17,332 bases of DNA from a bacterium (GCA_029933125.1 JAOZOU010000022.1:1-17332); one strand, 5' to 3'. Counted from the first letter of the stretch, positions 2,662 to 15,105 are shown. Made by a program: numbers and translations. The notes: generated by a model from the sequence alone, not told the origin.

Positions 2662-2664
2662 TTG

Positions 2665-5600
2665 ATGCTGAAGTCTAGAAAGTCATATGTTCTTCCAATC
2701 TTTGCCCTTTTTCTTTTCTCCGGGGCAACCGGTCTTGCCTACGAGGTCATCTGGACCCGTATGCTCACCCGTAGCTTCGGTGCAACATCGCTCGCTATCA
2801 GCACGGTGCTTGCAGCATATATGGCTGGGCTTGCACTTGGAAGCTACCTCTTCGGGCGAATCATAGATAGGCGTGGCAATCCTGTACTCATCTATGGTTT
2901 GCTTGAGCTTGGTATTGGTTCATTTGCTCTCGTATTCCCTTGGATTTTAAAGGGCTTGACACCGGTCTATAAGTCCCTCTATCCAGGTCTTCAGAGCCAT
3001 TTCTATGTTTTAAGCCTCGTTCGTTTTGGGCTATCCTTCATCATCCTGCTTGTCCCGACGACACTGATGGGTGGAACGCTGCCGGTCTTAAGTAAATATG
3101 TGAGCCGAAATCTATCGAACCTCACGATGAGAGTTGGATGGCTTTATGCGATCAATACTTTCGGAGCAGTTGTTGGGACATTTGCAACAGGTTTCCTCCT
3201 CATGCCAGCACTTGGAATGAGCTCAACAACCCACCTTGGAGTCATCTTGAACTTTGCGATCTTTATTGTGAGTCTCTTGCTTGCACGGGGCTTTGTGCGG
3301 GAAGAGCTTCTCGGGGCTCGGGGTGAGGCTCGTGGTGAGCAGGCAATAGCAAAACCAGAGATTTCAGGGAGGGAAAAGATTGTCCTTATTGCTTTTCTCC
3401 TTACGGGACTTGCAGCTCTTTCGGCTGAGGTAATCTGGAGTCGCGTTCTTACTCTCGTTGTCGGAACAACGGTCTATGCCTTCGCCACAATGCTCACAAC
3501 TTTCCTCCTTGGACTTGCCGTCGGAAGTGCTGTCTTTGCCAGAGTAGCTCAGCGAACGAAGCATCCGGGGAAATTATTCTCCTGGCTTGTCGTTGCAATC
3601 GGATTATGCGTCTTTGCAAGTACCGTTCTTTTCGGGAAGCTTCCCTTTTTCTATATGCATCTCTATGAGACGATTCCCAAGACCTGGACGAATGTCATCT
3701 GGGTGAAATTCCTGCTTTCACTTGCTCTAATGATCTTGCCGACTTTCCTCATGGGGGGCACTTTCCCACTCGTTGCACGCATATATGCAACCGATCTCAA
3801 AAGAGTCGGTGGGCGCATAGGAACAGCTTATGCTTTCAATACAATTGGATCGATTTGCGGCTCCTTCATAGGCAGTTTCTTGCTTCTGCGGTTCCTCGGA
3901 GTAGAAAAGGGCATGCTTGTTGTGGCTGCCATATATGTTGGCGTTGGCATATTGCTGTGGGTGAGTATTGCTGAGGGAGTAAGAAGAGGCTTAAGACTCA
4001 TCGGTTCGGGTGTGGTTGCGGCTGCCATTGTGCTGGCTATGGTTCTGTCCCCTGGATGGGATGAGAAGGTAATGACGAGTGCGGTTTATGTCTATGCGCC
4101 GCTTTACGAGACGCTAGAAGGACTAAAGGCTGACCTTGCCCGCAGACACATTCTTTTCTACGACGAAGGTCCTGGCGCCACGGTATCAGTTGAAAGGATT
4201 GATAACATCCTTTCGATGAGGATTGATGGAAAGGCGGACGCCTCAAGCGGTGCTGATATGATTACCCAGGAGCTTGTTGCCCATCTTCCACTGCTCGTGC
4301 ATCCTCAGCCCGATACGGTGCTCCTCATTGGACTCGGTAGCGGTGTGAGCCTCTCCTCAGCGGAGACCCATGACATTGACTATGTCGAGTGTGTTGAGCT
4401 GTTGGAGAATGTTATAGAGGCAGCCCACTTCTATGATCATCTTACGCACGATTGCTTGAGCGATCCCCGTGCGAAGTTGATTGTAGGTGATGGGCGGAAC
4501 CATGTCATGCTTACGCATCAGAGGTACGATGTCATTATATCGGAACCAACAAATGCCTGGATCTCAGGTGTTGGCGATCTTTTTACCCTCGAATTCTTCA
4601 AGCAAGCGAGCAAGCGCCTGAAGCCTGGTGGGGTAATGTGCGCATGGTTCCACATTTACCACATGGGCGAGCGTGAGCTCAAATCTGGCATCAAAACATT
4701 CATTTCTGTTTTCCCCAATTCAATGCTCTGGTTCTCCAACGAGTCGGATATGGTTTTGATAGGCTCACTCAGTCCTATTACCATAGACGACCAATTCATA
4801 AGCAGGATGAATCAGCCGAGAGTTAGGCAGGATCTCTGGAGAGTAGGTATAGATGAGCCCGAGGACATCTTGAGTGCTTTGCTGCTTTACGGTGAGGGTC
4901 TTCGAACCTTCACAGGTGGCGATGTTGAACTACACACAGATGACAACATGCTGCTTGAATATCAGGCAGCCCGAAGAATAGTTGAGAAGACTCACCTTGG
5001 TCATCTTCAAAACTTCGCTCAACTTTATAGACCAGTGCGTTATCCCGATCTTGATGAAGCCATCAACAGGAGCATAAGCCGGCGCATGCGTGCACGAGCC
5101 ATCACCATGAGGGGAACAATCGAATATCTTAAGGGAAATGTTCGCACTGGACTTAGCTTCTTTGACGAAGCATATAAGGCAGCCCCGAGCGATCAATATG
5201 TTGTTTCCAAGTATGTTGAAAGGCATATTGTTCTTGGCGATGAACTTCTTGCCAGAGGCGATTATGCAGCTGCTCGCCGTGAGTATGAAAAAGGTGTGAT
5301 TGAGCCGAGGTATTTCGATGCCTGGTTTGCCTTCGACGGCTTGGGTATTGCTTGCCTTTATCAAGGAGACTATGAGACTGCGAAGGCTAGCTTCGAGAAG
5401 GCGCTTCAACTCAATCCATACAGTGGAGACACATATTACAATCTTGCGCAGACTCTTATCGCAGTTGGCGATACTCTGGGTGCACTCGGCAACCTCGAGA
5501 AAGCGTATGATCTTGAGCCTCAAGACCCGGATGTAGCAAATTCGCTTGCATGGTACTACGCTGAGGCCGGCAGCAATCTCGATAGAGCTGAGGAGATTGC

Positions 5601-5874
5601 TGAGAAGGTTGTCTCGAAGAATCCCGAGCCTCTGTATCTCGATACCCTTGGCTGGGTGCGCTTCAAGCGAGGCAATTTTGACGAAGCCAGGAAGGCCTTT
5701 GAGCAAGCTCTCAGCGTTGATCCCAACTATGCCGATGCATTGTTCCATCTCGCTCATGTTGAACTGGCAGAAGGTGACAGGACTGCTGCAAGAGAGCTTC
5801 TTGAGCGGGTTGTCAAAATTGATAACGGCGACATAGGTGCGAAGGCGAGGAAAATTCTAAGTGATCTGGAATAG
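2665..5874 (+). CDS. Fused polytopic membrane / spermidine synthase-like / TPR protein
   Basis: Product of 1069 residues. ATG 2665 has CCGGAG (2654-2659) five bases upstream; a TTG at 2662 is the less likely alternative. Residues about 1-475 form a polytopic membrane region built as two similar halves: YEVIWTRML...GATSLAISTV and LMGGTLPVLSKYV recur as AEVIWSRVL...GTTVYAFATM and LMGGTFPLVARIY. Residues about 500-710 form a spermidine synthase-like Rossmann domain with VLLIGLGSG near 552, the acidic ECVEL about 25 residues later and DVIISEPTNAW near 622. Residues about 860-1065 hold at least four TPR-like repeats (e.g. GDYETAKASFEKALQLNP and GNFDEARKAFEQALSVDP). Where classical SpeE has a catalytic Asp after D-V-I-I, this protein has Glu, so polyamine synthesis should not be assumed; the substrate is unknown. 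It overlaps the next gene by 14 bases. Confidence 0.85.
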   Translation: MLKSRKSYVLPIFALFLFSGATGLAYEVIWTRMLTRSFGATSLAISTVLAAYMAGLALGSYLFGRIIDRRGNPVLIYGLLELGIGSFALVFPWILKGLTPVYKSLYPGLQSHFYVLSLVRFGLSFIILLVPTTLMGGTLPVLSKYVSRNLSNLTMRVGWLYAINTFGAVVGTFATGFLLMPALGMSSTTHLGVILNFAIFIVSLLLARGFVREELLGARGEARGEQAIAKPEISGREKIVLIAFLLTGLAALSAEVIWSRVLTLVVGTTVYAFATMLTTFLLGLAVGSAVFARVAQRTKHPGKLFSWLVVAIGLCVFASTVLFGKLPFFYMHLYETIPKTWTNVIWVKFLLSLALMILPTFLMGGTFPLVARIYATDLKRVGGRIGTAYAFNTIGSICGSFIGSFLLLRFLGVEKGMLVVAAIYVGVGILLWVSIAEGVRRGLRLIGSGVVAAAIVLAMVLSPGWDEKVMTSAVYVYAPLYETLEGLKADLARRHILFYDEGPGATVSVERIDNILSMRIDGKADASSGADMITQELVAHLPLLVHPQPDTVLLIGLGSGVSLSSAETHDIDYVECVELLENVIEAAHFYDHLTHDCLSDPRAKLIVGDGRNHVMLTHQRYDVIISEPTNAWISGVGDLFTLEFFKQASKRLKPGGVMCAWFHIYHMGERELKSGIKTFISVFPNSMLWFSNESDMVLIGSLSPITIDDQFISRMNQPRVRQDLWRVGIDEPEDILSALLLYGEGLRTFTGGDVELHTDDNMLLEYQAARRIVEKTHLGHLQNFAQLYRPVRYPDLDEAINRSISRRMRARAITMRGTIEYLKGNVRTGLSFFDEAYKAAPSDQYVVSKYVERHIVLGDELLARGDYAAARREYEKGVIEPRYFDAWFAFDGLGIACLYQGDYETAKASFEKALQLNPYSGDTYYNLAQTLIAVGDTLGALGNLEKAYDLEPQDPDVANSLAWYYAEAGSNLDRAEEIAEKVVSKNPEPLYLDTLGWVRFKRGNFDEARKAFEQALSVDPNYADALFHLAHVELAEGDRTAARELLERVVKIDNGDIGAKARKILSDLE

Positions 5875-8800
5875 GCACATCTTTAGACTTACTTTGGTTT
5901 TTGCGATCTTTGTCGTAGCCGCTCTTTGTGAGGCACAGGTAGAGGTTGAGAGGATAAGCAGTGATGCCCGTGGTTTAACCCTGAAGATCGTACTTGATAC
6001 CTATACCCTCAAGAATGTAGATCTCGATGGAGGAACCTACACTTCAATAGATGCGGCCCAGCTTGTAACCTTTGCAAAGCCTGGTGAGCCGGCTATTCCT
6101 CTTTACTCAACCCTCGTTGCCTCTCCTGGCAAGGTAAGGATTGTCTCCTATACGAGAAGCGATGAAGAAGTGGTTGAAAATGTGCGCATCATGCCAGTTC
6201 CCTACATCGGCTCAGACGATGAACGGGGTCTTCCTGTTTACACCTATGAGGAAGATGCTGACGCTTATGGTTCGGAGAGGTATCCTTCTCAGGCTGTCTG
6301 GCTTGGAAATCCTGGAAGATTGAGAAATCAGGATGTGATAAGACTCTTCGTTGCTCCATTTATCTATGAGCCCTCTCAGGGGAAATTGCGCATTGCGAAG
6401 CAAGTAACGGTGCACCTTGAGTTCGAGTCCCAGGGTCTTTTAGGGAGAGCTCGTTTGGATGATAATGTTTCCTGGGAGAGGCTTCTTAAGGATGTCGTCA
6501 TAAACTATGAGCAGGCTCGGGCCTGGCGGGTGCGCCCGTCGCCACTTATGCTGCGAGGAGAAGGGGCGAATAGCAGGCTCAAGATACTCGTCAGTGAAAG
6601 CGGGCTTTATGATCTTGACTTTGATACTGCAAGCAATGCTGGCTTTCCTGAAGGCATTGCAACGGACGATATCTTCCTTTATCGCGATGAATTCCATGAG
6701 GGCAATCCTGACAGCCTTGAAGTCAAGGAAATTGCAATTGAGGCAATTGATGCTGACGAGAATGGCATCTTCTCTCAGGGTGATCATATAATCTTCTATG
6801 CAAAGGACTTCTACGACGAGTTTGGCTATCAGGGAAGCGAGGATATTTATTTTGACAAAAATGTTTACTGGCTCTCCTGGGGCCCGGGTGAACATGCGAG
6901 GGTGAAGTTGCAAGCGGGGTGGCGAGAGGCAACGTCACCGGCAAAACCAACACACTTCACTGACTTTGTCCATATTGAGAAGGATTCCTTCTTCATAAAT
7001 ACCCCACCCTACGGTGATTTTGATCTTTTCGCCTGGGCTCGTTATCAGCGGAGCCTCAACTTCTATCTGCCAGGTGTTGAGCCCAATGAGCCAGCTACAC
7101 TCGAGACAAAGTTTGCAAGCTACTACTATAATTACGGCGGTGCTCCAACGATTTCAGACATTGCACTCTTCATCAAAGGATGTAGTGGGGAGCTCACCTC
7201 CATAGATACGGTTCGTGTAAATAGAATACCAAGCATAAGACAATTCTCATCAGCCATCCCCTCTGGTCTTCTTTGTGAAGGCCCAAATACCTTTAGGTTT
7301 GAAAGTTCACTTCCAGCCGATAAGAAACCTGGCAATATGCTTGACTGGTTTGAGGTTTTCTATGAACGAAGGTATGAGGCTAAGGATGGTGTGCTTGAGT
7401 TTACAAGTGGTAGCACAACAGGTGAGATTGAAATCGAAGTGGTGGGCTTCACATCTCCAGATATCATTGCCTATGACATAACCGATCTGAGCAATGTAGA
7501 GAAAATAGACTTAACGGGCAGGATAACTCCTGAGGGTGGAACCTACAAGATCGTCTTCCGTGATAGCATTTCATCGCAGCACACATATGTTGCATCGACT
7601 GCTCAAGCAATAAGCACTCTTAGCTCAAGCGCAATCGCATTTAAGAATCCACCTCGCCTCAGAGGTGAAGTTGGCGACTATATAGTGATCACCCATCCCG
7701 ATTTTCTCGACGAAGTGATGCCTCTTGTTGAGCATCGCGAACTCAGCCATAGCGTTACCCTTGCTACCGCTGAAGAGGTCTATGATGACTTTGGCAACGG
7801 TATGAAATCAGATGTAGCAATAAAGCGTTTCATAAAGCATGGCTTCTATCGCAGCAATTCTGCCTTTGTGCTCCTTGTGGGTGATGCCAATCTCGATCGC
7901 AAGGGTATCCTGCTTGTTCCACCTGATGAAAGTCAGGATCCCAGCGATATCGACTATTTGCCTTCCCATAACTTCATGGTTACCGAACCGGGCAACCCCA
8001 ACTTCTTTGTTCGCCCTTATGAATACTGGTTTGTCTCTGTTGATGGACCTGGAGATCAATACCCTGATCTTTATCTCGGAAGGCTTCCGGTTGGAAGCGA
8101 TGAGGAAGCATCGGGGGCAGTGGGCAAGATTCTTTCCTTTGAGACCTACAGCGGGGAGGATCCCTGGAAGAGGCGCCTGCTGCTTGTATCCGATGATGCC
8201 TACAGACAGTGGGAGTTTAAGGATGGCGATATGCCATTTAAAGAGGCAAGCGAAAGCGTTGCAGCAATTGCTTCAGGATCGGTTGTTGCGCCTGACACTG
8301 TTAAGTTCTATCTCGAGCGATGTCTTAAGGATGATCAGCCTGAGAAGCGTGAGAATCATGAACCCGTTACACCCGGTCTGACAATCAACTTTACAAGAAG
8401 CAATTGTACCCCTGAGCTTATCTCGCTTCTTAACGATGGTGCCCTCATCGTAAATTATCAAGGTCATGCCAATCGTCAGCAATTCACCCATGAATGGCTC
8501 GTGCTTGATTATGATACTCCATTCGGAACAACCTATAGAGACATACGGAATCTTACCAATCGTGACAAGCCCTTCATCTTTTTCGGATATGGCTGTTGGA
8601 TGGCGGATTTTCAGATGCGAGCTGAGCCTGCACCGGCTATCGGTGATGCAATTGCAGAGAAGTTTATTACCAATCCCAATGGAGCAGGGTGTGCATCTGT
8701 GGCAAGTTCCTGTGCTGAGTCTATTACCGACAACAGGAATCTCAACATCATAATGGCGAATGTGCTTTATAGCCACCTGCCAGAGCTAGACCCATCAGGT

Positions 8801-10123
8801 AATCCTATTCCAGCCAGACTTCTTCTTGGCGAGATCGTATTGAGCGGGCTTTTGCGTTTTGGCAGGATCAAGATAATTGAGGCTTATGTCACTCTTGGTG
8901 ATCCAGCAATGGTTATCGATATGGGTCCGCCCAAAATGACAGTAAGTTTAGGGGATTCCTTGCTTGATGAAAGTTATGTCTTTGAGGGCGAAGCTTTCGA
9001 TACCCTCTCCTTTAGGCTGGATGTGCGTGACGATGAAGCTATAGTTTCAAACAAGATTGTGATCATCGAGAACGGTATTGAGAGCCTCGTTCCTGAGGAT
9101 GCTTACGAGATCCGTGCTCTCATTGACACATCCTATGCTGCGAGCCGTGCTTATGAGATAACCTACAATCACGTTCCCCATCTTGGTACCTATGTTGTGC
9201 GCTTCTCGTCAGAGGACTATTCAGGGGCCTCATCTTCTTTCGGAGTAAGTATCGCAACGGGTTCAGTCGGTTTCTTTGCTGACACCGCTGAGCTCTCTGA
9301 AGGTGGTAGCCTCGTTTTTGGACAGAAGATGATAATCGATGTTGAGCGTCCCTTCATCTTCCATGAGGATGACATCACCGTCTATGTTGATACTATACCT
9401 GCTTCAGATTTTCAGAGCTATGATGTGACGATGAAAGACAGTGAGGGCAAGCACTGGCAGATTGCCTTCCTTCCCAGGCTTGGCTCGGGGCAACATGAGG
9501 TAACCTTGAATGTGCAAGGTTTTGAAGCCAGAAGAAGTTTTAATTACGTACCCGTACGCATCACTTTATTCATTGAAGATGTGCCTATGGTTGACAACGA
9601 CTATGTCAGCGTTGGCTCAACTATCGAAATAGTTGTTGAAGCCGAATCTGGTATTGCTCCCGAAGATATCTATGTCGCAATTGATAGCCTCGCTCAGACA
9701 GTAACCTTCCAAACCGATTCGACAGTTGTTCGGGGCTATCTTGATGTTCCAGAGCTTGATCCCGGTAACCATGAGATAGAGGTCAATCTATTCAGTTTCA
9801 GCATTTCAAGGAAATTCCAGATTTCCTCAGAGGAAAAGCTTATCGATGTCTCTATCTATCCCAATCCCTTCACTGCCGAAACCTACTTTTCTTACATCCT
9901 TTCGAAAGACGCTGATGAGGTGATCCTTGATGTTTTCTCAGTTGCCGGGCGCAGGATCTTTAGTGACTACCTTGAGACCACCACCGGCTATCATCAATAT
10001 CGCTGGAGCGGAGAAGACCTGGATGGAGACCGCATTGCTAATGGAACCTATCTCTACAGGATTACCGCAAAGTGGGGTAGTTCGAAGCGAACGGCAAGGG
10101 GTTGGGTGGTCAAGATTGAGTAA
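5861..10123 (+). CDS. Secreted gingipain-like cysteine protease (peptidase C25) with C-terminal FlgD/T9SS-like domain
   Basis: Product of 1420 residues. GTG 5861 overlaps the upstream gene's end and has CGAGGA (5846-5851) nine bases before it. Residues 1-25 are a signal peptide (hydrophobic FRLTLVFAIFVVAAL, then CEAQ). Residues about 25-215 resemble the C25 propeptide (G-E-P-A-I-P-L-Y, then ASPGKV). The C25 catalytic region is about 606-1020: likely catalytic His869 in NYQGHANRQ and Cys912 in GYGCWMADF, followed by a GAGCASVASS segment and YVTLGDPAM typical of its end. Ig-like beta domains cover about 1030-1320. The last 90 residues start VSIYPNPF and contain GYHQYRWSGEDLDG and NGTYLYRI, a FlgD-like/type IX sorting-type domain. 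It could be an extracellular digestive protease or a PorU-like processing enzyme. No type IX secretion genes are in the window. Confidence 0.88.
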   Translation: MIWNRHIFRLTLVFAIFVVAALCEAQVEVERISSDARGLTLKIVLDTYTLKNVDLDGGTYTSIDAAQLVTFAKPGEPAIPLYSTLVASPGKVRIVSYTRSDEEVVENVRIMPVPYIGSDDERGLPVYTYEEDADAYGSERYPSQAVWLGNPGRLRNQDVIRLFVAPFIYEPSQGKLRIAKQVTVHLEFESQGLLGRARLDDNVSWERLLKDVVINYEQARAWRVRPSPLMLRGEGANSRLKILVSESGLYDLDFDTASNAGFPEGIATDDIFLYRDEFHEGNPDSLEVKEIAIEAIDADENGIFSQGDHIIFYAKDFYDEFGYQGSEDIYFDKNVYWLSWGPGEHARVKLQAGWREATSPAKPTHFTDFVHIEKDSFFINTPPYGDFDLFAWARYQRSLNFYLPGVEPNEPATLETKFASYYYNYGGAPTISDIALFIKGCSGELTSIDTVRVNRIPSIRQFSSAIPSGLLCEGPNTFRFESSLPADKKPGNMLDWFEVFYERRYEAKDGVLEFTSGSTTGEIEIEVVGFTSPDIIAYDITDLSNVEKIDLTGRITPEGGTYKIVFRDSISSQHTYVASTAQAISTLSSSAIAFKNPPRLRGEVGDYIVITHPDFLDEVMPLVEHRELSHSVTLATAEEVYDDFGNGMKSDVAIKRFIKHGFYRSNSAFVLLVGDANLDRKGILLVPPDESQDPSDIDYLPSHNFMVTEPGNPNFFVRPYEYWFVSVDGPGDQYPDLYLGRLPVGSDEEASGAVGKILSFETYSGEDPWKRRLLLVSDDAYRQWEFKDGDMPFKEASESVAAIASGSVVAPDTVKFYLERCLKDDQPEKRENHEPVTPGLTINFTRSNCTPELISLLNDGALIVNYQGHANRQQFTHEWLVLDYDTPFGTTYRDIRNLTNRDKPFIFFGYGCWMADFQMRAEPAPAIGDAIAEKFITNPNGAGCASVASSCAESITDNRNLNIIMANVLYSHLPELDPSGNPIPARLLLGEIVLSGLLRFGRIKIIEAYVTLGDPAMVIDMGPPKMTVSLGDSLLDESYVFEGEAFDTLSFRLDVRDDEAIVSNKIVIIENGIESLVPEDAYEIRALIDTSYAASRAYEITYNHVPHLGTYVVRFSSEDYSGASSSFGVSIATGSVGFFADTAELSEGGSLVFGQKMIIDVERPFIFHEDDITVYVDTIPASDFQSYDVTMKDSEGKHWQIAFLPRLGSGQHEVTLNVQGFEARRSFNYVPVRITLFIEDVPMVDNDYVSVGSTIEIVVEAESGIAPEDIYVAIDSLAQTVTFQTDSTVVRGYLDVPELDPGNHEIEVNLFSFSISRKFQISSEEKLIDVSIYPNPFTAETYFSYILSKDADEVILDVFSVAGRRIFSDYLETTTGYHQYRWSGEDLDGDRIANGTYLYRITAKWGSSKRTARGWVVKIE

Positions 10124-11036
10124 GCAACCACCCCAAGTCTTCAGGGAAATAGCTGACCTTCCTACTGAAGCCATAAATCCGCGAACCATCAATCTCGATA
10201 GATCCTCGACCCTCGAGATTCTGAGAATGATAAATCGTGAGGATCGCATTGTTGCACCGGCAGTGGGTAAGGTACTTAGCCATATTGCACGTGCAGTTGA
10301 AATCGTTGTTAGCGCTATTCGCAAGGGTGGGCGCATCTACTATGTTGGAGCTGGCACGAGTGGAAGGCTTGGTGTGATTGATGCAGCTGAATGCCCACCG
10401 ACATTTGGCACACCTCCTGAGCTTTTCCAGGCAATCGTTGCTGGTGGAAGATCTGCTGTTTTCAGGGCGAAGGAGGGAGCGGAGGATCGCACAGGCGAGG
10501 CTCGAAGGCTCCTTGCTCGTAAGCACCTTAGGAAGTGGGATGTGGTTATTGGGCTCGCGGCATGCCGAAGAACACCTTTTGTTGTAGCAGCTCTTGAGAG
10601 TGCTAAGAAGGTTGGAGCACGCACTGTTTATGTTACGTGCAATCCAAGGGGTGGAATTGATGCTGATGTTGTAATTGTGATCGATGTGGGACCTGAGGTG
10701 ATAATGGGTTCGACAAGGATGAAGTGTGGGACTGCTGAAAAGATGGTTCTTAACATGATATCGACAGCTGCCATGGTTCAGCTCGGCAAGGTCTACAGGA
10801 ATCTTATGGTAGATCTCATGGCAACTAGCGAGAAACTCAGACAAAGATCGCTGAGAACGGTTATGCTTGCAACTGGTTGCTCTTATGATGAAGCCACAAG
10901 AGCACTTAAAGCATCTGGTGGAAGTGTTAAGGTAGCAATCGTTATGATGCTCAAGGGTGTTGGGAAGCGCAAGGCCATGAGTCTGCTTAAGCGATGTGAA
11001 GGGAAGGTTCATCTAGCACTCGAGGAGGAAAGGTGA
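10116..11036 (+). CDS. murQ: N-acetylmuramic acid 6-phosphate etherase
   Basis: Cytoplasmic lyase of 306 residues that cleaves the lactyl ether of MurNAc-6-P to GlcNAc-6-P and D-lactate in murein recycling. A TTG start at 10116, overlapping the protease gene by eight bases, is favoured because the conserved N-terminal motif LPTEAINPRTINLD lies soon after it and later starts would remove it; only a weak GGGTGG (10104-10109) serves as SD. The SIS domain shows VGAGTSGRLGVIDAAECPPTFGT with Glu92, and GAED with Glu123, matching the two catalytic glutamates known in E. coli MurQ (Glu83, Glu114). VGPEVIMGSTRMKCGTA and KVYRNLMVDL are also family hallmarks. Odd point: the usual A-S-G-R-T-P motif is A-C-R-R-T-P here (Cys150, Arg151). 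It overlaps the transporter gene by four bases. Confidence 0.93.
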   Translation: MSKQPPQVFREIADLPTEAINPRTINLDRSSTLEILRMINREDRIVAPAVGKVLSHIARAVEIVVSAIRKGGRIYYVGAGTSGRLGVIDAAECPPTFGTPPELFQAIVAGGRSAVFRAKEGAEDRTGEARRLLARKHLRKWDVVIGLAACRRTPFVVAALESAKKVGARTVYVTCNPRGGIDADVVIVIDVGPEVIMGSTRMKCGTAEKMVLNMISTAAMVQLGKVYRNLMVDLMATSEKLRQRSLRTVMLATGCSYDEATRALKASGGSVKVAIVMMLKGVGKRKAMSLLKRCEGKVHLALEEER

Positions 11037-12223
11037 AAAGGTTAGCCACTTTCCTAATAGCTGTCTGTGTTTTCTCATGCTCTTCAAAGAGGCAAGGCAT
11101 TGTCTTCTGGCAGTTCCAGCGGCCCGATATCATGGAAACTTTGATCGATGATTTTTCCAAGAGCCACGGTATAGATGTCAAAATGGAGACACTCACCTGG
11201 CAGAGTGGGTTCGAAAAGGTGGTCATGGCATTTTCATCAGGCCGGATTCCCGACTTGCTCGAGCTTGGCTCAACCTGGATAGGGAAGTTCGCGGCAGAAG
11301 GGATGCTTGAAGACCTTAGTGATGCTGTCTCTGACATCAAGCCCCATCTCATGATGTGGGAACTTGCAACCTATAAAGGAAGAATCTATGGAATACCCTG
11401 GCTGGTTGGAAGCCGGGTGCTTTTCTACAATCGTGACCTTTTCAAAAGAGCCGGACTCGATCCTCTTCATCCACCCCAGACATGGGATGATCTCATCAAG
11501 TGTGCGCGTGCAATTGATGCGCTCGGTGAGGATATCTATGGATTTGGTCTCAATGCAGGTGAGAGATATATCCTTTACAAGAAGTTCATGCCCTTTGCCT
11601 GGAGCGCCGGCGGGCGTATCCTCAATCATGATCAATCAAGGTGTGTTATCAATTCACCTGAGAATCTTGAGGCTCTTAAGTTCTATGTTTCACTTAAGCC
11701 GTTTTCTGTTCTTGATCGCCAGGATATGATCGATGAGATGTTCAAGCAGGGCAGGGTTGGGATGATGATATCGGGTGGTTGGAACCTCAAGCGTCTTCCC
11801 GTGGATGCTCCCCAGCTTGACTTTGGCATTGCTCTCGTGCCTCGTCACAAGAAGGGGGCTCATGTGTCCTTTGCGGGCGCTGAGATTCTTGTTATTCCCA
11901 AAGGCTCAAAGAAGGCACAAGCTCTTGAGCTGGCAAAATACCTGGTCGAAGCTTCGAAAGCATTGGAAGTTGCAAAGAAAGTAAAGGGTGTACAGCCAGC
12001 CTCGATGGATGCCCTGAAGCATGCCTATTACAAGGATCATCCTATGGAAAGGCTTCTTCTTGAACAATGCATGATTTCAAGATCGCCACCTGCTTCACCT
12101 CACTGGATTGAGATAGAGGAAATAATAAATGATCGCCTTGAGGAATGTCTTTATGGAAAGATCTCTCCCAGCGAGGCTCTTTCCAAGATGGAAAGTGAAA
12201 TCAACGAAATAATAGCGCCATGA
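11033..12223 (+). CDS. ABC transporter sugar-binding lipoprotein (CUT1-type)
   Basis: Solute-binding protein of 396 residues for an ABC sugar importer. GTG 11033 overlaps the murQ stop (GTGA) and follows AGGAGG (11023-11028) by four bases. Residues 1-16 are a lipoprotein signal with lipobox V-F-S-C (lipidated Cys16), so it is membrane-anchored outside the cytoplasm. The family 1 extracellular solute-binding fold is recognisable: VFWQF at the mature start, IPDLLELGSTWIGKFAAEGMLEDL, YGIPWLVGSRVLFYNRDLF, PPQTWDDLIKCARAI, GRVGMMISGGWNL and GAEILVIPKGSKK. Its ligand cannot be read from sequence. Flanking murQ and anmK suggest a muramic acid sugar (anhydro-MurNAc or a disaccharide containing it). 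It overlaps the first permease gene by four bases. Confidence 0.9.
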   Translation: MKRLATFLIAVCVFSCSSKRQGIVFWQFQRPDIMETLIDDFSKSHGIDVKMETLTWQSGFEKVVMAFSSGRIPDLLELGSTWIGKFAAEGMLEDLSDAVSDIKPHLMMWELATYKGRIYGIPWLVGSRVLFYNRDLFKRAGLDPLHPPQTWDDLIKCARAIDALGEDIYGFGLNAGERYILYKKFMPFAWSAGGRILNHDQSRCVINSPENLEALKFYVSLKPFSVLDRQDMIDEMFKQGRVGMMISGGWNLKRLPVDAPQLDFGIALVPRHKKGAHVSFAGAEILVIPKGSKKAQALELAKYLVEASKALEVAKKVKGVQPASMDALKHAYYKDHPMERLLLEQCMISRSPPASPHWIEIEEIINDRLEECLYGKISPSEALSKMESEINEIIAP

Positions 12224-13086
12224 TTCCTCGCCGGAGCTTGCTACTCTTTTTCTTGCCCTGGCTTGTCTCGTTTGCGGTCTTCTCAGCCTACCCGATCGGA
12301 TTCTCACTTGGGCTGAGTTTTGCTGATTACAATCCCTTCGGTGGCGGGATCACACGCTGGGTTGGCCTTGAAAACTATCGTGCGATCTTTGCCGATTCCC
12401 TTTTCTGGCGCTCTTTCACAAATACAATTGTATTCGTAGTAGGCACGGTCTTGCCAACTGCAGGTATTTCACTTATTCTCGCTGTTCTTATTAACAGGAG
12501 CGGACGTCTCCTTGGTTGCCTGAGGGGTGGCTATTTCATCCCTTCGGTTGTCTCCCTTGCTGCTGTCTCGCTGATTTTCAAGTACATCTATTCAAAGCAG
12601 GGCTTCTTGAATGCAATTGTCACGATGATGGGGGGGACAGCCAGAGATTGGCTTCTGAGTCCCAAACTGGCACTGCCGAGCATAATAGCGATGGACATCT
12701 GGGCCAGTATCGGCTACTACGCCATCTTCTATCTTGCTGGTCTTCAGACCATTCCTCAGGAATTATATGAAGCTGCCCGAATGGATGGTGCAGGCAGGCT
12801 TGCTATCTTCCGTTTCATAACACTCCCATCTCTTAAGCCAGTCATAGTCTTTGTTGTGGTAGTAAATACAATCCGTGCCTTCCAGGTCTTTGTGGAAGTG
12901 GTCATAATGACACGAGGTGGTCCCATGGGAAGCACGATGACGCTCATCTACTACATGTATGAAAAGGCATTTCACAGAATAAACATGGGAGCGGCGAGTG
13001 CTGTTGCAGTTGTGGTTTTCGCTCTCATAGCTGGATTTGCTTTGCTACAGGTGAGACTTCTCAGGCAAGTGCGCTCAGCGGTTTAG
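12220..13086 (+). CDS. ABC sugar transporter permease, MalF/UgpA type
   Basis: Inner-membrane permease of 288 residues with about six hydrophobic segments, the first at residues 6-28 (LLLFFLPWLVSFAVFSAY). The start ATGA overlaps the binding-protein stop. The EAA loop that contacts the ATPase is clear: EAARMDGAGRLAIFRFITLP from residue 184. The order binding protein, MalF-type, MalG-type is the standard CUT1 layout, so it should form a heterodimer with the product of 13109-13924. No nucleotide-binding subunit is encoded in the window, so an MsmK/UgpC-like ATPase elsewhere is likely shared, which is common in CUT1 systems. Confidence 0.92.
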   Translation: MIPRRSLLLFFLPWLVSFAVFSAYPIGFSLGLSFADYNPFGGGITRWVGLENYRAIFADSLFWRSFTNTIVFVVGTVLPTAGISLILAVLINRSGRLLGCLRGGYFIPSVVSLAAVSLIFKYIYSKQGFLNAIVTMMGGTARDWLLSPKLALPSIIAMDIWASIGYYAIFYLAGLQTIPQELYEAARMDGAGRLAIFRFITLPSLKPVIVFVVVVNTIRAFQVFVEVVIMTRGGPMGSTMTLIYYMYEKAFHRINMGAASAVAVVVFALIAGFALLQVRLLRQVRSAV

Positions 13087-13108
13087 GTGAAAAGAGGGGA
13101 AGGCAGGT

Positions 13109-13924
13109 TTGAGGTGGACAAGAGAAAAAATAAGCGTTCTCGGAGTAGCATTGCTCATCCTCCTGTTTATCAATCTCTTACCACTCGGCGTGATGCTCTC
13201 AGTCTCTTTGAAGGGAGAGGGGAGCGTCCTGCGGAGTCTGGCTGATCTTATTCCAAAACAGATAACATTTGCGCACTATGCGGAGGTTCTGTCATCCGGA
13301 AGGTTTGCTCGCTACTTTCTCAACAGCACTATTGTTGCCATCGCAGTCGTCGCTGGTAACCTTATCTTCGCACCCATGGCTGCCTATGCTTTGCTGCGCA
13401 GTGACTCGAAGGTGACACGGATTTTCCTTGTGCTTGTGATTGCAACCATGATGGTTCCCAAGCACATAATGATGATTCCTCTCTTTACCATGCTCTACAG
13501 GATGCACCTCATCGACACTTACTTTGCGCTTGTGCTTCCATTTCTCGTAGATGCTTTCAATGTCTTCTTCGTTTATCAATATCTCAAAACTATTCCACAT
13601 GAGATAGAAGAGGCTGCCTTTATGGATGGAGCCAGTCTCGCAAACGCCTTTTTCCGTGTTGTCTATCCTGTGCTCAAGCCAGCCCTGGCTGTTGTCGCAA
13701 CAAATACCTTTCTCATAAACTGGAATTCTTTCCTGCTCCCCTTTGTGCTTACGAGCTCGGATAAGGTCCGAACTCTTCCTGTTGGCCTTGCAATTTTCTC
13801 GCAGGGCGAGCACAGCACAGATTGGTCTTTGCTCATGGCCGGTTCGATACTCGCGGCTGTGCCAACCATAGTTATCTGGATAAGGAGTCAGAAGATTGCT
13901 CAAAGTATGCTTGCCAGTCGGTGA
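13109..13924 (+). CDS. ABC sugar transporter permease, MalG/UgpE type
   Basis: Inner-membrane permease of 271 residues. The start is a TTG at 13109, with AGGGGA (13095-13100) eight bases upstream; no in-frame ATG gives a full first membrane segment. Residues about 10-32 form the first hydrophobic helix, and five more follow. The EAA motif is EEAAFMDGASLANAFFRVVYPVLKP from about residue 167. The typical MalG-like segment NTFLINWNSFLLPFVL is present near residue 200, followed by TLPVGLAIF. It lies 22 bases after the partner permease and nine bases before anmK. Confidence 0.92.
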   Translation: MRWTREKISVLGVALLILLFINLLPLGVMLSVSLKGEGSVLRSLADLIPKQITFAHYAEVLSSGRFARYFLNSTIVAIAVVAGNLIFAPMAAYALLRSDSKVTRIFLVLVIATMMVPKHIMMIPLFTMLYRMHLIDTYFALVLPFLVDAFNVFFVYQYLKTIPHEIEEAAFMDGASLANAFFRVVYPVLKPALAVVATNTFLINWNSFLLPFVLTSSDKVRTLPVGLAIFSQGEHSTDWSLLMAGSILAAVPTIVIWIRSQKIAQSMLASR

Positions 13925-13933
13925 GGAGGAACT

Positions 13934-15028
13934 ATGAAAGCTACCCTTGCCTGTGGTCTCATCTCCGGGACATCACGAGATGGAGTTGATGCTGCAATCA
14001 TTGAAATAAGAGATCGCTTCCCGCGAAATCGCATTAGGCTCGTCTGCGCTAAGACGTTCCCTTATCCTGGTTGGCTTAAGAAAGTGCTTGCAAAGCCTGG
14101 TGAACGGTTCTCCAGCGAGGAAATAGCAGCGCTTGACTTCCTCCTCGGCGAGATCTTCGCTCAGGCTGCCTTGCGTCTTATCAAGATTGCGAGGCTTAAG
14201 CCTGAGATGATTGATGTAATAGGAAGTCATGGCCAGACCATTCTCCACAAACCGCGTGGTATCCGCCTGGGAAGGAGAAGGATAAGAGCAACCCTTCAGG
14301 TTGGATCGGGAACGGTCATAGCAGCTCTGACAGGCATCACGACCATATTCGACTTCAGAACAGGGGATGTTGCACTTGGCGGTGAAGGTGCTCCACTTGT
14401 TCCCATTTACGATTATGTTGTGTTGACATCAAAGACGAAGACGCGCCTTGCACTCAACATAGGTGGGATCTCCAATGTGAGCGTGTTACCAAAAGGAGGG
14501 AAGTTGAGCGATGTCCAGGCCTTCGACTGTGGCCCAGGCAATTGCATGATTGATATTGCTGTCAGTTATCTTACAAATGGTCGAAAAAGTTATGACCGCG
14601 ATGGCAAGATAGCTCTTGAAGGCAGAGCCGACGGGAAAGAAGTTGCTCGCATTCTCAGTCATCCTTACTTCAGGCGCAGACCTCCCAAGTCAACTGGGTG
14701 GTCAGAGTTCGGCTATGACTTCACAATCAAAGCCGTAAGGCGCATGAAGAGGAGAATGAAGACGCCTGACATAATTCGCACCCTGACCGAGGCAACATGT
14801 AAGGCGATCTTACATTCTATAAGGAGATTTGTACTTAAGTCCATGCCAGTTGATGAAGTCATCGTCACAGGCGGTGGTGTTCATAATCCAGTTATTATGG
14901 CTTGCCTCAGTGAGGGTCTAAGCGACTGCAAGATACTCAAAGGTGAGGATGTCGGGATCTCGAGTGACTGGAAAGAAGCCTGCGCCTTCGCCTACCTCGC
15001 CTACCTCCACCACCGGGGTCGGAGCTAA
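13934..15028 (+). CDS. anmK: Anhydro-N-acetylmuramic acid kinase
   Basis: Cytoplasmic kinase/hydrolase of 364 residues that converts 1,6-anhydro-MurNAc and ATP to MurNAc-6-P, the substrate of MurQ in the same operon. ATG 13934 follows a GAGGAGGA SD region by about five bases. Family signatures in order: GLISGTSRDGVDAAII (residues 6-21), GSHGQTILHKPRG, TLQVGSGTVIAALTGITTIFDFRTGDVALGGEGAPLVP, LNIGGISNVS, FDCGPGNCMID with the likely catalytic base Asp198, YDRDGKIALEG, STGWSEFG and TGGGVHNPVIM. The length fits the family. DCGPGN replaces the more usual DTGPGN. The last residues, R-G-R-S, and the TAA stop are encoded inside the first unit of the 36-bp tandem repeat, so the original C-terminus may have been altered. 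Confidence 0.94.
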   Translation: MKATLACGLISGTSRDGVDAAIIEIRDRFPRNRIRLVCAKTFPYPGWLKKVLAKPGERFSSEEIAALDFLLGEIFAQAALRLIKIARLKPEMIDVIGSHGQTILHKPRGIRLGRRRIRATLQVGSGTVIAALTGITTIFDFRTGDVALGGEGAPLVPIYDYVVLTSKTKTRLALNIGGISNVSVLPKGGKLSDVQAFDCGPGNCMIDIAVSYLTNGRKSYDRDGKIALEGRADGKEVARILSHPYFRRRPPKSTGWSEFGYDFTIKAVRRMKRRMKTPDIIRTLTEATCKAILHSIRRFVLKSMPVDEVIVTGGGVHNPVIMACLSEGLSDCKILKGEDVGISSDWKEACAFAYLAYLHHRGRS

Positions 15029-15105
15029 AAATCTCCAAATCGCCCGTTTTGGGGTCGGAGCTAAAAATCTTCAAATCGCGCCCTTTGGGGTCGGAGCTAA
15101 AAATC
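15015..15105 (+). repeat. Tandem 36-bp direct repeats overlapping the anmK stop
   Basis: The core GGGGTCGGAGCTAAAAATC occurs at 15015-15033, 15051-15069 and 15087-15105, an exact 36-base period. The second half of units 1 and 2 is similar but not identical (TCCAAATCGCCCGTTTT and TTCAAATCGCGCCCTTT); after the third core the sequence diverges. A fourth copy is at 1546-1564. The 17-base interval between cores and the resemblance of these intervals to one another argue against CRISPR. The GGGGTC beginning resembles short elements I have seen near REP-associated Y1 transposases, but no transposase is here. From 15106 to 15254 I see only a weak CGCGC/GCGCG pairing near 15106-15126 and no gene. Confidence 0.9.

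Follow-up and report, generated by a model that had tools for sequence, protein, structure and literature searches.

The five-gene block murQ–SBP–permA–permB–anmK is probably a dedicated operon for the import and salvage of peptide-free 1,6-anhydro-muramyl sugars, most likely GlcNAc-anhMurNAc, and we put the probability of this reading at roughly 0.7. The block lies in the window, by which we mean the whole stretch of DNA analysed (17,332 nt, bacterial; GCA_029933125.1 JAOZOU010000022.1:1-17332). The host assembly (3.2 Mb, 96.7% complete) is labelled G000, and the labels G001–G332 denote the other genomes surveyed. SBP stands for the lipoprotein sugar-binding protein. The five genes lie on one strand in the order given, among the following features.

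5861–10123, plus strand: C25-type peptidase, PorU-related, with a T9SS-type tail (PF01364, 176 bits)
10116–11036, plus strand: murQ, MurNAc-6-phosphate etherase, TTG start (TIGR00274, 360 bits, cut-off 302)
11033–12223, plus strand: SBP, CUT1-type lipoprotein, SBP_bac_1 (PF01547, 137 bits, 1.4e-39)
11552–11584, plus strand: clade motif NAGERYILYKK (NAGER..LYKK), SBP residues 174–184
12220–13086, plus strand: permA, CUT1 permease 1, MalF/UgpA type (PF00528, 8.8e-19)
13109–13924, plus strand: permB, CUT1 permease 2, MalG/UgpE type (PF00528, 1.7e-13)
13934–15028, plus strand: anmK, anhydro-N-acetylmuramic acid kinase (PF03702, 298 bits, cut-off 24)
15015–15105, no strand: 36-nt tandem repeat in 2.5 copies, which overlaps anmK at its 3′ end and provides the stop codon

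The earlier note had placed murQ, the SBP, two CUT1 permeases and anmK in a single packed block with no gap above 22 bases. Coordinates, strand and family models all agree with this, and the sequence gives junctions of −4 (murQ/SBP, overlap GTGA), −4 (SBP/permA, overlap ATGA), +22 (permA–permB) and +9 (permB–anmK). In each of the five genes, changes among relatives pile up at third codon positions, which indicates purifying selection; as the gene order also recurs in relatives, the block is not a chance arrangement. A promoter and terminator scan gave matches no more numerous than in shuffled sequence. Because the 5′ end of murQ shares 8 nt, stop codon included, with the C25 peptidase gene upstream, the transcription unit may start farther upstream. 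An identical 8-nt overlap in G002 and G004 speaks for the TTG start at 10116. The C25 protein scored 227 bits against NF033707 (cut-off 420), and its tail 26 bits against TIGR04183 (cut-off 23). The C25–murQ order was kept in G002, G003, G004 and G007, and in the window both genes belong to the same packed strand. The pathway may serve either to recycle the bacterium's own wall or to feed on other cells; a C25 peptidase with a secretion-tail match beside the operon would fit feeding.

MurQ scored above the curated equivalog cut-off (NCBIfam TIGR00274), and in an alignment of ten MurQs it retained the acidic motifs DAAECPPT and EGAED. The catalytic roles of ECPPT and EGAED are presumably those of E. 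coli MurQ. In the same alignment, ‘A(C/S)RRTPFV’ replaced ‘ASGRTPYV’, a feature common to the LT-linked relatives. A scan of viral contigs detected no MurQ relatives. AnmK showed 387.4 bits against NF007148 (cut-off 387) and retained the ATPase motifs GTSxDGxD and FDCGPGN (DxGPGN). Its C-terminus is clipped, with about 25 aa conserved in relatives absent and the Pfam match ending at 340 of 367, apparently because the gene runs into the 36-nt repeat and takes its stop codon from it. Judging from the catalytic motifs and the codon bias, this short AnmK probably still works. In a scan of genome contigs with AnmK, one near relative was found (L038, which by gene coordinates is the G001 stretch), and the remaining relatives were distant SAR86 AnmKs.

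The SBP_bac_1 lipoprotein and the two BPD_transp_1 permeases together make up a CUT1 importer, and import is the presumed direction of transport. The SBP N-terminus, MKRLATFLIAVCVFSC, holds a plausible lipobox (VFSC). permA was 73% identical to its counterpart in G003 and 46% to that in G201, and permB 67% and 45%, respectively. The sole OB_MalK-type ATPase in the host genome is of the UgpC type (G000:C76:254272; 493 bits, cut-off 432) and is unlinked. We infer that this UgpC/MsmX-type ATPase powers the two permeases, and it probably serves several CUT1 systems.

The earlier note had proposed a search for the neighbourhood in other genomes, and the search found it conserved in genomes sharing the family, the class or only the domain with the host. 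Within the host family, G003 carried SBP-permA-permB-anmK, G002 carried C25-murQ-SBP and SBP-permA-permB-anmK on two contigs, G004 carried C25-murQ-SBP-permA running to the contig end, and G001 carried permA-(permB)-anmK, its assembly dividing permB between two frames. G007, of the same class, showed SBP-permA-permB-anmK-SpoIID-NagZ with murQ on another contig; the two contigs may be neighbours, since the murQ contig breaks off within a second C25-type gene and the ABC contig likewise within a C25-type gene. In G201, which has only the domain in common with the host, murQ-SBP-permA-permB-anmK-SpoIID were observed on one strand, with an SBP 43% identical to that of the window. AnmK was the operon kinase in every complete copy.

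A wider survey covered 386 genomes, in which murQ and anmK were frequently close together. Of these, 121 had AnmK and 90 had MurQ, with 63 having both. With one genome taken per family, MurQ and AnmK occurred together in 7/7 families of the SBP clade compared with 54/376 of the remaining genomes (Fisher 2e-6) and 5/21 of those carrying a different A1-matching SBP (7e-4), figures to be read with three of the seven families linked by construction, the clade chosen after data inspection and kinship ignored by the statistics. The four unlinked families provide a fairer test, and all four had both enzymes (about 4e-4 by multiplying the background rate, kinship ignored). Transporters of another type occurred in the same slot: in G073, murQ and anmK flank a sodium/solute symporter (SSS/SSF, PF00474), and SpoIID comes after anmK. 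A transporter near murQ/anmK is therefore a recurring design, of which the CUT1 importer is one version. SpoIID also followed anmK in G332 and G179, a BadF-type kinase was fused to MurQ beside SpoIID and AnmK in G283, and the order NagZ-AnmK-SpoIID was observed in G016 and G303, where the SBP is unlinked.

Among 30 SBPs compared in a tree, those linked to murQ/anmK (G000, G002, G003, G004, G007, G201) all fell into one clade with support of 97/96, together with the unlinked SBP of G126; a phylogeny had also been suggested beforehand, to see whether murQ-linked copies form a single group. G016, G303 and G164 formed the sister group (joint support 90/89), so that four of the ten SBPs in the joint clade (G126, G016, G303, G164) come without murQ/anmK linkage. 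The conserved neighbourhood and the single clade of linked SBPs support the proposal that this is a dedicated ABC import and salvage operon. Binding of maltose or cellobiose by the SBP was considered and dropped, because most GH94-linked SBPs occupied a separate clade of this tree (GH94-like genes named by eye).

The ten SBPs share a basic motif. K183 was present in 10/10 of them and in 0/20 other SBPs, which mostly have Q there; R178 was present in 9/10 versus 0/20, and K184 in 9/10 versus 2/20. The W-Q common in other SBPs is thus replaced by Y-K, with an extra R and K. Since positive charge is added where neutral-sugar binders have W-Q, the patch would suit the lactyl carboxylate of muramic acid, and contact of R178, K183 and K184 with this group is plausible. 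By analogy with UspC the motif would sit in the ligand cleft: in that protein Gln218, near the UgpB Leu205/Trp position, is a cleft residue with an effect on chitobiose binding (PMC4929945). An AlphaFold model built from the single SBP sequence, with no alignment, had a mean pLDDT of 39.

The motif also bears on the reading that chitobiose or another neutral GlcNAc saccharide is the ligand and that murQ and anmK stand beside the SBP gene through shared amino-sugar regulation only. A search of solved structures with the SBP gave 5ci5 as the nearest match, followed by other sugar binders, none with a name that indicates a muramyl-sugar ligand. The SBPs of G057 and G199, 34–35% identical, adjoin NagZ and a ROK regulator, with a NagA-type amidohydrolase as a further neighbour in G057, much as in Thermotoga ChiEFG; such chitobiose-type cousins suggest that the SBP family can bind neutral sugars. 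Both of these SBPs fall outside the linked clade, however, and the separation of that clade, its change from W-Q to Y-K with added R and K, and the presence of MurQ and AnmK in every family that has this SBP make the neutral-sugar reading very unlikely. We consider it highly likely that the ligand is some muramyl sugar and, somewhat less firmly, likely that it is an anhydro-muramyl sugar.

The anhydro form had been favoured earlier on the ground that AnmK was the only kinase present. This is true within the window but not genome-wide, as the host genome encodes a BadF-type sugar kinase (PF01869, 41.8 bits) beside a GHL10 glycosyl hydrolase, outside the window (G000:C76, kinase at L145:7060-7965). 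The kinase could act on GlcNAc released by NagZ or on MurNAc. If it phosphorylated MurNAc, the ligand might be non-anhydro MurNAc or GlcNAc-MurNAc, with AnmK serving a separate flux. DigH is a GHL10 protein, and a GHL10 neighbour for the kinase would agree with such a route. DigH is documented as a hydrolase of denuded glycans (PMC12288456), and the products that Waddlia SpoIID releases from denuded glycans are mainly non-anhydro (PMC6635528). Against this, all complete operon copies keep AnmK and not a MurNAc kinase, the BadF-type kinase scored only 51.7 bits against the NagK-like model (cut-off 370), and action on NagZ-released GlcNAc is equally likely for it. We regard the non-anhydro reading as improbable.

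Two SLT-domain lytic transglycosylase proteins were found in the host genome. SpoIID was absent from both the host genome and the host family, and the anhydro-product link in this family therefore rests on the SLT enzymes. With the SpoIID of B. subtilis, non-anhydro moieties did not build up from denuded glycans (PMC6635528), unlike with the Waddlia enzyme, so the SpoIID argument is supportive and not decisive. NagA reached its cut-off neither in the host nor in nine relatives and comparison genomes.

SpoIID and NagZ in the same operon in relatives, together with the basic motif of the SBP, sharpen the ligand further. The host genome has one GH3/NagZ-like protein, which carries KHFPGHG and, judged by eye, no signal peptide; it is encoded away from the operon. 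Its score against the NagZ-type model (133 bits) is below the cut-off (207), and the name NagZ is probable rather than certain. As this sole candidate shows no signal peptide, we lean towards GlcNAc-anhMurNAc over free anhMurNAc, and give the disaccharide about an even chance of being the main ligand. Import of only free anhMurNAc, with GlcNAc removed extracellularly, would agree with the unlinked position of NagZ in the host and with operon enzymes, AnmK and MurQ, that require just the monosaccharide. The lack of a visible signal peptide on the NagZ-like protein, the NagZ gene within the operon of G007 and the ChiEFG-like NagZ and ROK genes beside the G057 and G199 relatives of the SBP favour the disaccharide, and we consider import of the free sugar unlikely, although less so than the other alternatives.

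AmpG (TIGR00901) had no match in the host genome or the host family, and some muropeptide route may be needed in its place. Anhydromuropeptides could then be imported with the peptide attached, as by AmpG or YejBEF-YepA. The SBP belongs with the CUT1 sugar binders (PF01547) and not with the SBP_bac_5 peptide binders, so the window lacks the SBP_bac_5 and Dpp-type permease pairing of YejABEF-type systems. No amidase or LD-carboxypeptidase was recognised beside any copy in the part of the neighbours scanned, and peptide-bound import appears highly improbable.

The preferred reading, salvage of peptide-free GlcNAc-anhMurNAc, would proceed as follows. Lytic transglycosylases outside the inner membrane, SLT enzymes in the host and operon-encoded SpoIID in relatives, would free the disaccharide, which the lipoprotein SBP would capture, R178, K183 and K184 holding the lactyl carboxylate. 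Through the two CUT1 permeases, driven by the shared UgpC/MsmX-type ATPase, the sugar would enter the cytosol, where NagZ would cleave off GlcNAc. AnmK would open and phosphorylate anhMurNAc to MurNAc-6-P, and MurQ would convert the latter to GlcNAc-6-P and lactate, these last two steps being established chemistry (PMC5061867). The odds are about balanced for a broader proposal, that the widely scattered CUT1 clade with NAGER..LYKK is specific for 1,6-anhydro-muramyl saccharides (GlcNAc-anhMurNAc) and replaces AmpG in AmpG-less phyla, fed by SpoIID or SLT enzymes from denuded glycans. If the reading is correct, bacteria without AmpG or MurP would gain an ATP-driven means of recycling peptidoglycan sugars or feeding on them, and a short motif would allow such anhydro-sugar importers to be annotated. 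The SpoIID-type enzymes of non-sporulating bacteria would also be tied to sugar salvage, as operons of several lineages combine SpoIID with AnmK and MurQ.

Several known systems resemble the operon in part. The MurT-MurK-MurQ operon of T. forsythia, a characterised MurNAc uptake operon with a secondary transporter (PMC5790795), likewise combines a transporter, a sugar kinase and MurQ and leads to GlcNAc-6-P. MurT, termed both a sodium symporter and an MFS protein in that work, is a secondary transporter and MurK acts on MurNAc, whereas the window has a CUT1 ABC importer and AnmK acting on the anhydro sugar. Agrobacterium YejBEF-YepA (PMC9790009) is also an ABC importer used in place of AmpG for anhydro wall fragments, but it takes anhydromuropeptides, whereas here a CUT1 sugar importer shares an operon with AnmK and MurQ. 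Thermotoga ChiEFG, for which chitobiose is the tentative substrate (PMC3750489), stands with ChiR, cbsA and nagAB, and this set of sugar ABC importer, ROK regulator and chitobiose hydrolase resembles the G057 and G199 operons in gene content. Its predicted ligand is neutral chitobiose, it has nagAB and not murQ/anmK, and a linked ROK regulator, hydrolase and nagAB of this type are absent from the window and its close relatives. Mycobacterium UspABC/UspC is an ABC amino-sugar binder proposed for peptidoglycan recycling; it binds non-acetylated amino sugars weakly (mM), and the available part of the source describes no linked MurQ or AnmK (PMC4929945).

The E. coli AmpG-NagZ-AnmK-MurQ pathway with the MurP PTS (PMC5061867) shares the cytosolic NagZ, AnmK and MurQ chemistry, but its uptake relies on an MFS permease or a PTS, in contrast to the ABC importer within the operon here. 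Our search, mostly confined to open-access literature, found no ABC importer that takes up free anhMurNAc or GlcNAc-anhMurNAc, and an ABC importer type for anhydro-muramyl sugars seems not to have been characterised previously. The parts are known from these systems; their combination and the proposed ligand class would be new among cell-wall salvage systems.

Upstream of murQ, the window carried the following features:

918-1499, secreted protein, in the same orientation as its paralogue at 1869-2561
1869-2561, secreted protein, the second member of the pair
2662-5874, 1070-aa fusion of an MFS-like membrane part, a spermidine synthase domain and TPR repeats
5861-10123, PorU-related C25 peptidase bearing a T9SS-type tail, its gene closely packed with murQ

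The adjacency of the C25 peptidase gene and murQ was kept in relatives, and the two genes possibly share one transcription unit. The 1070-aa fusion gene overlapped the C25 gene by 14 nt, and in G003 (a genome of the window's family) and G007 (same class) it likewise lay upstream of C25-murQ. The secreted protein at 918-1499 had no Pfam match.

At the other end of the locus, a tandem repeat was observed:

15015-15105, 36-nt unit in 2.5 copies, core GGGGTCGGAGCTAAAAAT

In the window, this repeat overlapped the anmK 3' end and provided the anmK stop codon. A further single copy with the same core was located at 1546-1563, and anmK of G001, from the same family, contained the similar sequence GGGGTCGGAGCCAAAAAC within its 3' end.

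Where the MurQ copy in comparison genome G199 read ASGRTPYV, MurQ of the window and of related operons linked to a lytic transglycosylase read A(C/S)RRTPFV, with R replacing G in a conserved loop.

A possible second cell-wall sugar pair was found elsewhere in the host genome:

L145:5960-7965 (C76), GHL10 glycosyl hydrolase followed directly by a BadF-type sugar kinase

Among the comparison genomes, the following loci were noted:

L119 (G073:C23), gene order murQ, sodium/solute symporter, anmK, SpoIID
L123:2704-4569 (G283:C29), BadF-type kinase-MurQ fusion, 621 aa
L127:4500-11009 (G199:C12), NagZ-like GH3, murQ, putative transcription regulator and SBP_bac_5 (peptide-type) ABC transporter, consecutive

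The G073 symporter, between murQ and anmK, is a candidate anhMurNAc transporter; in G214 (L120), murQ, anmK and SpoIID were present, together with a gap matching in size. SpoIID and AnmK came after the fusion in G283. The SBP_bac_5 transporter row of G199 may represent a muropeptide importer.
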